A DNA stretch of 43,767 nucleotides, taken from an uncultured bacterium. Its GTDB lineage: Bacteria > Patescibacteriota > Minisyncoccia > Moranbacterales > GWC2-37-73. The stretch's first letter is position 1. Each line of letters opens with the position of its first letter. Both the position numbers and the translations under genes were made by a program. This document shows, in pieces, positions 274-39,893 of this stretch. The notes beneath the pieces are model-generated. The model saw nothing but the letters and a program-made list of their open reading frames with translations, did not search any database and was not told the DNA's origin. The stretch is from the NCBI GenBank assembly GCA_903837175.1, contig CAILTR010000046.1, forward strand, positions 1 through 43,767. Reading direction: 5' to 3'.

Positions 274-1707
274 TTAATTTCCTCGCCTTTTAAATAGCAC
301 CAATACCGTTTTCAAACAAATCTGGATATCTTCCCAAAGCGACCAGTTTTCAATGTAATAAACATCCAGCTTATATTCATCTTCAAATTGTAAATCGCTG
401 CGACCAGAAACTTGGGCCATCCCAGTCACGCCAGGTTTTATCGTTAGCAGCCGCCTGTGATATTCGCTATATTTCTCGACCTCTCGTTGTTGATGGGGAC
501 GCGGCCCAACTAAACTCATATCGCCTTTAAGGACATTAAAAAATTGCGGAAGCTCGTCAATTGAATATTTTTCGATAAACGCTCCGACCTTAGTTTTGCG
601 AGGATCATTTTTAATTTTATAAAGCGGTCCTTTGCGCAAACTTTTTTTCGCAATTAGCTCCTTTTCATATTCAATTGCCTTGCGACCTTCTTTCGTATTT
701 GGATTAGTGCACATTTCCCATTTCATATAACGAAATTTAAACACATCAAATTTCTTCCCATCCCCACCAATGCGCTCATTTTTATAAATAATTGGACCAG
801 CTTTTTTCTCTTCAAAAAAGGATTCCAATTTAATTAAAAACGCAACTAAAATCATCAGCGGCGCAAATAAAATAATTAAAATAATCGATGCCACCAAATC
901 AAAAGCTCTTTTTAAAATCTTCCCCCAGCCCTCTAGCGGCGTATTACGCACTTCAATAATCGGCTCACCACTAAAAATCCCGGCTTCAAAGCGAGCAGTT
1001 TGCAAGGTAGTTGGAATAAATTTATAAGCCACGTTATTAATCGCGCAATAATCAATCAATTTTTCTTGTTCCGAATCAGTCAGCGTCGAATCGCAGACAA
1101 TAATTTCATCAAGACCTTTTTGCTTTTTAATTTGACGGATTAGGGTAATACTTCCGCTCTCAATATGGTCAACAATCCAATAACCAAGGCTGGGATCCTT
1201 TTCAATAATCCTTTTAACTTTGTCCATCTTGCCATTACTGCCTATTAATAAGACCTGATGGACACCCATCCCGCGACTAATCAAAAGCTTTTTTTGAATC
1301 TTTCTTAGTAGATAGCGTCCGAAAATTACAAAAATAACCACCAAAACCCAACCGGCTAAAATAATAAAACGCGAAGAAAAAAATTCTCGTTTTAAAAAGA
1401 TTGTCACAATTACCACCACCAAGGCAATTGAAGTAGCGGAAAAAACCTTTAACGCTTCGTGCCAAAATTTACGCGTAACTTGCAAATTATATAAACCTTC
1501 CAAAGCGTAAATAAATAAAATAACCGGCATGAGCATTAAGACCGCTAAAAAATAACTTCTCAGCGGAAATTCATACAGCTTCGGTTTCAGTAAAAGAATT
1601 TCCGGAATATTGCGAATCACAAAAGCGCTCAGCGCTGCTAAGATAATCATCACCGCGTCAATTGGAACCTGAATTGCACTAAAAATTAATTCTGACTTTT
1701 TTTTCAT
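274..1707 (-). CDS. Undecaprenyl-phosphate sugar phosphotransferase (exopolysaccharide biosynthesis polyprenyl glycosylphosphotransferase)
   Basis: N-terminal TM helices, C-terminal [31 protein letters not shown] ... [22 protein letters not shown] ... [13 protein letters not shown] bacterial sugar transferase motifs. Confidence 0.93.
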
Positions 1708-2111
1708 TTACCCTGTTAAATAAGATTTGAGTCTTCAAAAAAAGAAGGACTTTTCTTATTATTTTACTTTTTACTTTAATTCACGATGTTAATTTAAATT
1801 AAAACTCAAATCTTAATTTTAAAAAATAGTAATTCTTTAAAATTATTTAACAGGGTGAACCTACGAAATTACAAAATAAATACATTCCATCTTTGCGAGC
1901 TTGTAATCAAGCGAAGCAATCCAGAGAAGTGCCGAGCTCATTATTTTTCACTCCGCCCAGGGTGGATCGCGATGAAAATTTTTTTCCTTCAAAAACAAAA
2001 TGTATCAAACCAATCGATAAGCCGGATTCTGTCGAGGACAACCATTTATCTAGGTATACTGTTACCAGCACACTCAAGCGGCACCCCGCCAATGCTACGC
2101 ATCAGAAGCTC

Positions 2112-2276
2112 CAAGTTACAAGAAACAAATAACAAACAAAATGCAAACACCAATCACCAAAATTTAAAACACATTATTTGTGATTTGAAATTTGAGGATT
2201 GAAATTTTTTTGCCTGCCTGCCGGTAGGCAGGGGATTTGTATCTTGGTTATTGAAATTTCCAGTGCGAAGCACTGG
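2112..2276 (-). repeat. Dispersed repeat copy inside rnpB (insertion 2), with nested GCCTGCC palindrome
   Basis: Minus strand: CCAGTGCTTCGCACTGGAAATTTCAATAACC...TTTGTTTGTTATTTGTTTCTTGTAACTTG; matches insertion 1. Confidence 0.8.
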
Positions 2277-2420
2277 CAGTACGGCCTTGCATCCAAGTAA
2301 GGATTTAGCCGTTTCACCTCTCATGTTACCATAAGAACTCACCCAATCTTGCGAAAGGGTGTCTTGCTAACTTTCGCGCAAGACGTCTCTGCTCGCACCT
2401 CTGCCGTTGCGCAGCAAGGG

Positions 2421-2571
2421 AAATTACAAATTACAAGAAACAAATAGCAAACAAAAACTAAACCTCAATTGCCAAAAATCAAACTAAGTTGCTTGTGATT
2501 TGGAAATTGGTTATTGAAATTTGTTTGATTATTGTTTATTAGTTATTGGAATTTCCAGTGCTACGCACTGG
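2421..2571 (-). repeat. Dispersed repeat copy inside rnpB (insertion 1)
   Basis: Minus strand: CCAGTGCGTAGCACTGGAAATTCCAATAAC...TTTGTTTGCTATTTGTTTCTTGTAATTTGTAATTT; same ends and orientation as insertion 2. Confidence 0.8.
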
Positions 2572-2913
2572 CGATGGGCGTTACCCACTACCCTTGCTCC
2601 GATAAATCGGAGCTGAATGTCCGGACTTTCCTCCCCGCCTAGGGCGGGGCGATTGCCTAATTGACTTGATACATTTTATTTTCAAAGACCTCTTAAAAAC
2701 ATTATACCACAACCAGCGGATTCTATCCCTTTTTAGCCAAATTGTCAAGAGCTTAAAGTCAGTATTTTTCCTCTCTTAAAGCAAATCTGGGGGTATCGAA
2801 TTAGGTTGCCGCCTTGCTTATTTAGCGAAAATAAGCTATATTTAAAAAAGTTTCAGAACAGCTCATAAGGTGTGTCCATTAAAAAAATTAATTAATTTTA
2901 AATCATAAATTAA

Positions 2914-13563: not shown

Positions 13564-13590
13564 ATTTTTATTTAAAATTATTATTTATTC

Positions 13591-13701
13591 TTATTACAAT
13601 ATACTGAAATATTGTAATAAGAATAAGTAGTAAAAATGCAGGTCAGAGACTTTCTTAAAATTCAATAGGTAACATATTACAATATACTGAAATATGGTAA
13701 G
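13591..13701. repeat. Palindromic 84-bp repeat array A (2 units), upstream of 12931..13563
   Basis: ttattacaatatactgaaatattgtaataagaataagtag at 13591; atattacaatatactgaaatatggtaaggg at 13674 (83 bp offset). Confidence 0.85.
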
Positions 13702-13742
13702 GGAGTATTTTTTAAGCCTATCTTTCACTTAAGAACTACCCA

Positions 13743-14159: not shown

Positions 14160-14216
14160 ATAAGTTATTTTACTTTTTAATTCCCCATATTTTTATGTTC
14201 GTCGTTATTATATCCC

Positions 14217-14488
14217 ATATTACAATATACTGAAATATTGAAACGGAGAATGGCATGGCAAACGGGGACTTGGCAGGGTTGAGAAAATTGGGTTGGTGGG
14301 ATATTACAATATACTGAAATATTGTAACGGGAATAGATAGAGAAAATACTGGCTTTAGCGTGTGATAGAAATGAGGCGGGTGGGATATTACAATATACTG
14401 AAATATTGTAATGGGAATAAGTAGAGAAAATGAGGGCAATCGTGTTTTTGGGAAATTGGAAAGGTGGGATATTACAATATACTGAAAT
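14217..14488. repeat. Palindromic 84-bp repeat array B (4 units, last truncated), upstream of the TrpR-like gene
   Basis: ATATTACAATATACTGAAAT starts at 14217, 14301, 14385 and 14469: three consecutive offsets of exactly 84 bp. Confidence 0.92.
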
Positions 14489-14493
14489 GCTTT

Positions 14494-14520
14494 CTCTCCG
14501 GAGGACCGTCCTCCGGAGAG
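14494..14520. repeat. TCCGGAGGACSGTCCTCCGGA palindrome, copy 3, inside the broken last unit of array B
   Basis: ctctccggaggaccgtcctccggagag directly after ATATTACAATATACTGAAATGCTTT. Confidence 0.8.
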
Positions 14521-15603: not shown

Positions 15604-15639
15604 ATTTTTGACTTATTTTTTATTTAAAAATTTTTATCC

Positions 15640-15800
15640 ATATTACAATATACTGAAATATTGTAATGGAAAAGGGTAGGAAAAATACGTGGTTTAGCGT
15701 GTGATAGAAATGAGGCGGGCGGGATATTACAATATACTGAAATATTGTAACGGAAATAAGTAGGGAAAATGGGAGGATGCGGAGGGTAGGAATTTGGGGG
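15640..15800. repeat. Palindromic 84-bp repeat array C (2 units), upstream of 14665..15603
   Basis: atattacaatatactgaaatattgtaa at 15640 and 15724 (84 bp offset). Confidence 0.9.
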
Positions 15801-24936: not shown

Positions 24937-24950
24937 TTTGGCAACATTTT

Positions 24951-25020
24951 CTTATCGCTAGACAAACAAAAATCTCCGCTTTGAGGGGAGATTTCTTATT
25001 TGTAGCGCTAAGGAGAATCG
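24951..25020. repeat. Direct repeat carrying the tRNA-Glu 3' end plus its terminator hairpin (copy of 25107-25176)
   Basis: cttatcgctagacaaacaaaaatctccgctttgaggggagatttcttatttgtagcgctaaggagaatcg, about 70 bp, offset 156 bp. Confidence 0.85.
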
Positions 25021-25158
25021 CTTCTTCGCTCCGACTTGAAGCTGGGGCGCTACACACAGGATGCCTCGCACTTGCTCGCATCCTACTCGCGCCCGTCCGA
25101 TTCTCTCTTATCGCTAGACAAACAAAAATCTCCGCTTCGAGGGGAGATTTTTTATTTG

Positions 25159-25230
25159 TAGCGCTAAGGAGAATCGGACTCCTGTTACCAGGATGAGAAC
25201 CTGGCGTCCTAGCCACTAGACGATAGCGCC
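25159..25230 (-). tRNA. tRNA-Glu (anticodon CTC)
   Basis: GGCGCTATCGTCTAGTGGCTAGGACGCCAGGTTCTCATCCTGGTAACAGGAGTCCGATTCTCCTTAGCGCTA; anticodon arm CCAGG TTCTCAT CCTGG. Confidence 0.95.
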
Positions 25231-31029: not shown

Positions 31030-31158
31030 GCATAAGCATACAAACATGTAATCATCTAAGCATACAATCATATAAGCATGTAAGCATATAGACATATAGA
31101 CATATAAACATGTAAGCATACAATCATATAAGCATGAAAGCATGTAAGCATCTAAACA
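31030..31158. repeat. Degenerate about 10-bp tandem word repeat (CATATAAGCATGTAAG...)
   Basis: cataagcatacaaacatgtaatcatctaagcatacaatcatataagcatgtaagcatatagacatatag...; similar tract at 39749-39893. Confidence 0.85.
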
Positions 31159-39748: not shown

Positions 39749-39893
39749 CATTTAATCATTTAATCATTTAATCATATAAACATTTAATCATATAAACATA
39801 CAAGCATACAAGCATATAAATATGTAAGCATGCAAACATATAAACATACCTGTTTAAATGTTTACATGACTTACATGACTTACATGACTTCAT
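39749..39893. repeat. Degenerate short-word tandem repeat upstream of secA
   Basis: catttaatcatttaatcatttaatcatataaacatttaatcatataaacatacaagcatacaagcatataaa...tttacatgacttacatgacttacatgactt. Confidence 0.85.

Follow-up and report, generated by a model that had tools for sequence, protein, structure and literature searches.

RNase P RNA is usually regarded as a compact, single-piece ribozyme, and helices H9, H25 and H45 are classical sites of intervening sequences (IVS) in rRNA. Vioque is said to have described, in 1997, STRR repeats within the rnpB genes of heterocyst-forming cyanobacteria. Two reports name helix 45 of the Coxiella 23S gene (PMC4990558) and helices 25 and 45 in Campylobacter (PMC2801512) as sites of intervening sequences. 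Insertions in the rRNA genes of CPR bacteria are common and well described; the survey that documents them, restricted to 16S and 23S genes and centred on group I introns with LAGLIDADG nucleases, places many at the tops of stem-loops, finds GIY-YIG ORFs in some, and makes no mention of RNase P (PMC11270868). For the RNase P RNAs of CPR bacteria, the accessible text of Lui et al. 2021 (PMC8172020) gives scores below the Rfam cut-off, large helix extensions and one extended P15, and describes the extensions neither as repeats nor as interchangeable modules nor as common to rRNA. In the open-licence literature we found no paper connecting the CPR rRNA insertions with lengthened RNase P RNAs and no report of interchangeable repeat modules or a GIY-YIG ORF in rnpB. 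Nor did literature on palindromic repeats, intervening sequences, homing endonucleases or Rickettsia elements in relation to RNase P RNA, judged mainly by title and abstract, yield any report of a finding like the present one.

The DNA analysed here (the window) is a stretch of 43,767 nucleotides from a metagenome-assembled genome (MAG) of an uncultured member of the Moranbacterales, and it carries an rnpB gene with a long insert in each of two arms. In the reading that we consider likely, this is a functional, single-copy type-A rnpB gene in which rods with complementary ends now occupy the P9 and P16/17 arms, rods of the kinds found at IVS-type sites in the rRNA genes of relatives. The inserts, here called modules, share with the rRNA IVS of Coxiella and Campylobacter a place at the tip of a peripheral helix in a stable RNA. 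Their ends are complementary and their predicted fold is a rod, they are patchily present and turn over fast among relatives, and the same module types stand at such 23S sites in relatives. They differ from rRNA IVS in that the host gene encodes RNase P RNA, and in that no S23-type IVS protein was seen in the rnpB modules, a GIY-YIG ORF being present instead in two relatives. Because they are located in rnpB we call the modules of the window IVS-like rather than rRNA IVS; IVS-like elements within a functional ribozyme gene are the best reading of them. Insert-rich stable RNA genes, stem-loop tops as sites and occasional GIY-YIG ORFs are features held in common with the CPR rRNA insertions, as are the low Rfam score and large helix extensions with the CPR RNase P RNAs. 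The cyanobacterial STRR repeats are alike in being genomic repeats within rnpB, but they are short and tandem, whereas the window has single long palindromic rods; the only tandem units of that kind in its rnpB gene form a weak 14-nt, 2.3-copy row at 2176-2207.

The rnpB gene of the window

On the minus strand of the window, the covariance model RF00010 aligns over its full length (model positions 1-367) from 2668 to 2002 with 91 bits (E 3.7e-28). This whole-model match identifies a type-A RNase P RNA, though with a score under the Rfam gathering score of 100 bits, and the gene is therefore missed by a default Rfam scan. The host genome (G000) is a MAG of 1.37 Mb in 120 contigs, rated 95.9% complete, in which the window copy is the sole type-A match. 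The small genomes of the genus, its insert-rich stable RNA genes and a group I intron in the 23S gene of G002 are features that point to the Candidate Phyla Radiation (CPR, Patescibacteria). Taken together, the alignment and the genome search indicate that the gene is probably a single-copy, functional RNase P RNA. The features of the locus are collected in Table 1. The sugar transferase gene downstream also lies 3' of rnpB in several relatives, as read by eye from their gene neighbours.

Table 1. Features of the rnpB locus in the window, with related loci in other genomes (.. separates first and last position; CM, covariance model)
Feature	Position	Strand	Basis or remark
Gene for type-A RNase P RNA (rnpB), from one strand of P1 to the other	2001..2673	-	673 nt; RF00010
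Promoter-like site TTGACA-17-TAGAAT upstream of rnpB	2720..2748	-	11/12 consensus positions; consensus match only
P3 hairpin, without insert	2633..2649	-	P3 arm filled in G001, G003, G004, G014, G015
Short hairpin between P5 and P7, without insert	2596..2613	-	filled in G001, G003, G014
Module 1, replacing the tip of P9	2404..2571	-	CM alignment; fold -53.1 kcal/mol, z -6.3
Module 1, near palindrome CCAGTGCGTAGCACTGG	2555..2571	-	palindrome search
Module 1, AT-rich body, related to intergenic repeats of the genome	2421..2554	-	sequence comparison
Module 1, far palindrome CCCTTGCTGCGCAACGG, complementary to the near one	2404..2420	-	sequence; pairing count
Module 2, in the P16/17 arm	2089..2276	-	CM alignment; fold of 2064-2280 -77.3 kcal/mol, z -6.2
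Module 2, near palindrome CCAGTGCTTCGCACTGG	2260..2276	-	palindrome search
Module 2, AT-rich body	2106..2259	-	inner GC hairpin 2213-2232 common to an intergenic copy
Module 2, far palindrome CTGATGCGTAGCATTGG	2089..2105	-	sequence; pairing count
Downstream gene, exopolysaccharide-type sugar transferase	274..1707	-	PF02397, TIGR03025
Loci of CCAGCCCTTT...AAAGGGCTGG-like stems (G003, G014)	L050:1500-1834, L048:1680-2300

Both modules are laid out alike, from a near palindrome CCAGTGCNNNGCACTGG through an AT-rich body, whose left arm is rich in A and C and whose right arm is rich in T and G, to a far palindrome. They repeat each other over 125 nt at 73% and 41 nt at 85% identity, and neither encodes a protein. 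The perfect palindrome CCAGTGCNNNGCACTGG (2260-2276 and 2555-2571) has five matches at up to three mismatches, against 0.51 expected by chance, and the TTTGTTATTTGTTTCTTGTAATTTG tail of the inserts was not matched in any shuffle. As RNA, each module is predicted to form one long rod that prolongs its arm, with a folding z of about -6. Rfam matches to plant microRNA precursors across the P9 module fell far below their cut-offs and were taken as chance.

In 11 of 11 modules compared, the two 17-nt ends are mutually complementary, and this extends to the three bases that would form the "loop" of each end: 28 of 33 such pairs are complementary, against a mean of 16.8 with shuffled partners, a comparison whose shuffle probability overstates independence because the modules are related. 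Complementarity that includes the loop bases fits one rod better than two separate hairpins. These sequences do not distinguish duplication of a palindromic target from a terminal inverted repeat.

The conserved rnpB segments that the first-pass annotation had recognised over about 673 nt are borne out by the full-length RF00010 match and by the P1 limits at 2673 and 2001. The Infernal alignment to the type-A model that it proposed was run and assigns one insert to P9 and the other to the P16/P17 arm, in agreement with its assignment to the P7-P9 region and the P15-P17 arm. It had correctly seen that the inserts repeat each other, but its limits (about 2112-2276 and about 2421-2571) were too short, since they missed the far palindromes at 2089-2105 and 2404-2420. 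Its estimate of about 390 nt left after removal does not follow even from those limits, which leave 357 nt; removal of the full modules leaves 317 of 673 nt. The second intact rnpB that would have made this copy a pseudogene was not found in the MAG.

In type-A RNase P RNA, the loop of P9 is generally considered to dock on P1. The P9 arm of one genus relative (G004) retains a GCAA loop, while in the window the module takes the place of the loop; the P9-P1 contact would therefore be lost or changed.

Modules in the RNA genes of relatives

Within the genus, rnpB measures 474 nt in G002, 673 nt in G000, 701 nt in G004, 831 nt in G001 and 867 nt in G003. The filled arms are P9 and P16/17 in G000; P3, P5.1 (a label coined here for the hairpin between P5 and P7), P9 and P16/17 in G001; P12 and, as a short remnant, P9 in G002; P3, P5.1, P9 and P12 in G003; and P3 and P16/17 in G004. 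Five peripheral sites of rnpB in the four relatives (G001-G004) have rods, which belong to three or more sequence types. Besides the AT type, to which the modules of the window belong, these comprise an ACAC type (CCAGTGCTTCGCACTGACACACTGACC...) and one characterised by CCAGCCCTTTTGG. A further rod fills P3 in G001 and G004. Empty arms end in short closed hairpins, exemplified by GCCAAGGCGCAAGCTTTGGC at P9 of G004 and CCAATGCTTTGCATTGG at P16/17 of loci L009 and L014. No rnpB was detected in G005, a fifth genus relative, which may reflect a gap in its bin.

Comparison of closely related genes revealed how quickly the arms change. Over the approximately 153 nt of core compared, G000 and G001 are 99.3% identical and differ in the filling of P3, P5.1 and P16/17, while G002 and G003 are 99.4% identical and differ at P3, P5.1 and P9, so that the turnover of modules greatly outpaces change in the ribozyme core. 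The P9 modules of G000 and G001 occupy the same place with 11 differences in 170 nt, which mostly spare the pairs of a shared fold derived from those same two sequences. Together, the analyses show that the modules lie outside the conserved core, have the predicted fold of long arm extensions, and are swapped or gained faster than the core changes.

Across the order, 112 of 122 genomes gave an rnpB match; by our own count 26 matches span more than 450 nt, and many members have short arms. Inserts with the same hairpin-body-hairpin layout occur at P12 of L054, from another family, and at P16/17 of G015 and G018, from another genus of the same family. As a separate observation, the P3, P5.1, P12 and P16/17 stems of G003 all resemble CCAGCCCTTT...AAAGGGCTGG, as if copied between arms, and stems of this kind occur at P3 and P5.1 of G014, a member of another genus of the family.

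Related rods were found in the rRNA genes of relatives, from which all evidence on rRNA modules comes, the rRNA genes of G000 itself not being in its bin. With helix numbers that we take from comparison with E. coli, the tip of H98 in 23S rRNA carries an AT-type module in G001 and G005 and the short hairpin TACGTAATTTATTACGTA in G002, G003 and G004; the H9 modules of G002, G003 and G004 all differ from one another; and at H45, G002 and G003 have a CCAGCTC rod, whereas that of G004 is an ACAC rod. An ACAC-like rod is also present at h39 of the 16S rRNA of G004. Apart from the rods, large insertions interrupt the 23S genes of G002 (L124) and G004 (L120) at positions common to both. An Rfam scan matches one of those in G002 to the group I intron model, and others look protein-coding.

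Origin and possible consequences of the modules

The main test of the link to rRNA was a search for the end palindromes across six whole genomes. All copies that deviate by no more than one base are in rnpB or towards the 3' end of a 23S gene, and sites elsewhere with two mismatches are about as frequent as matches to a reversed control pattern. Complete hairpin-body-hairpin units were found in stable RNA genes (rnpB and 23S) and nowhere else, and in this the module resembles rRNA intervening sequences. The AT-rich body, in contrast, has divergent intergenic relatives in G000, of which those inspected have no palindromic ends. For module 1, its best match among intergenic repeats scores 49.1 bits, where the best of 200 shuffles reaches 41.0 bits; for module 2 the two values are 77.0 and 37.4 bits. 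This control somewhat favours the real query because the database was enriched for matching loci. Part of the module is thus not specific to RNA genes, which counts against the IVS-like reading. When 327 kb of G003 were scanned blindly for long stems, 77 loose ones emerged, among which neither the CCAGCCC nor the CCARTGC type was recognised by eye; the scan is weak, because it also missed the modules of G000 owing to their mismatches.

If the modules are IVS-like elements, they would have spread through insertion or recombination at hairpin tips, possibly with the help of a nuclease, for instance the GIY-YIG protein for which one such module codes in two relatives, and would be tolerated because they only lengthen outer hairpins. 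An RNase III gene is present in all six genomes, and RNase III may cut the rods in the cell. Such cleavage, which would yield a nicked but folded ribozyme, seems to us about evenly balanced against the alternative that the rod is kept as an extended helix. A bolder proposal is that hairpin-tip elements specific to stable RNAs, some of them with GIY-YIG genes, move among rnpB, 23S and 16S genes, and that RNase P RNA works as RNase III-cut fragments; we regard this as possible but doubtful.

An ordinary dispersed AT-rich palindromic repeat might instead land anywhere, with only outer-loop insertions surviving in rnpB, in which case no link to rRNA would be needed. The matches of the body to intergenic repeats, better than those of any of 200 shuffles, agree with this explanation. 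It is nonetheless unlikely: neither the end palindromes, at one mismatch or fewer, nor the ACAC type had a match outside RNA genes in the six genomes, and several unrelated types occupy the same sites. Accordingly, the first-pass description of a dispersed palindromic repeat suits the AT-rich body but not the palindromic ends, found only in rnpB and 23S genes, on which ground the simple dispersed-repeat reading was set aside as unlikely; the accompanying idea of tolerated extra stem-loops in peripheral arms is supported.

Retention of the modules as arms with a function in the ribozyme, such as docking of protein or RNA, would suit the closed, stable predicted folds of the rods. Sister genomes with 99% identical cores swap or lack modules at the same arm, however, and arms are short in many members of the order, making this very improbable. 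A pseudogene or an assembly artefact might be suspected of a metagenome assembly with repeats and a score below the Rfam cut-off; we consider this very improbable, as the genome has no other rnpB match, G001 shows the P9 module in the same position, genes with inserts recur in independent MAGs, and the core segments are conserved. Finally, a group I or group II intron spliced out of rnpB is scarcely credible despite the abundance of group I introns in CPR rRNA genes (PMC11270868), given that the inserts sit at helix tips with plain rod folds and that the kind of scan that detects the group I intron in the G002 23S gene, a positive control, gives no Rfam intron match in the window rnpB.

If the outer arms of RNase P RNA do serve as insertion sites common to rRNA, a habit of insertion familiar from rRNA extends to RNase P RNA, and hairpin-tip insertion would be a property of the stable RNAs of this lineage and not of ribosomes alone. 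It would help to explain why RNase P RNA so often misses the Rfam cut-off in such genomes, and would provide natural constructs to test which arms of the ribozyme can be lengthened or cut.

GIY-YIG genes and other repeats

The P3 arms of G003 and G014 contain an 84-codon ORF for a GIY-YIG protein (PF01541, 58.6 bits), with both P1 strands present outside it; in G014 the two arms of a perfect inverted repeat, CCCCGCCCTTTGAAA, enclose the ORF. Between the two genomes it has 28 synonymous and 8 nonsynonymous changes, and with a pN of 0.039 against a pS of 0.59 the protein appears to be under purifying selection. The ORF suggests that some modules may spread by cutting uninserted sites, and thereby a concrete, testable mover. 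A recent transfer of the element between G003 and G014 is unsupported, the ORFs being only 85.9% identical with the pS given above. Elsewhere in the genus, the flanks of GIY-YIG genes mostly have no clear inverted repeat. A link to Y1/REP transposases was considered and set aside: Y1_Tnp genes occur in six genomes of the genus and not in G014, G015 and G018, whose rnpB genes carry inserts, and nothing ties them to the modules.

Other GIY-YIG loci are associated with repeats of their own. At L193:1410-1900 (G003:C23), a GIY-YIG ORF lies between a 5' fragment of tRNA-Glu and a complete tRNA-Glu gene; the fragment has a hairpin in its anticodon loop and is followed by a further tRNA-like fragment with a similar hairpin. 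At about 1400-1830 of L182 (G000:C21), the inverted repeat TGTCATCCTGAG flanks a GIY-YIG ORF, and a similar palindrome of about 87 bp with arms TGTCATCCTGAAC recurs in the G003 sample.

The window contains several repeats besides those in rnpB. At 24950-25230, the 3' end of a tRNA-Glu gene (CTC, 25158-25230, minus strand) and the hairpin that follows it are duplicated 156 nt away with 97% identity. A repeat centred on the palindrome ATATTACAATATACTGAAATATTGTAAT occurs eight times within 13574-13703, 14200-14516 and 15623-15771, in part as an 84-nt tandem array, and two arrays with an 8-nt period, built of related units such as TAAGCATA and TAATCATA, occupy 31033-31158 and 39749-39848.
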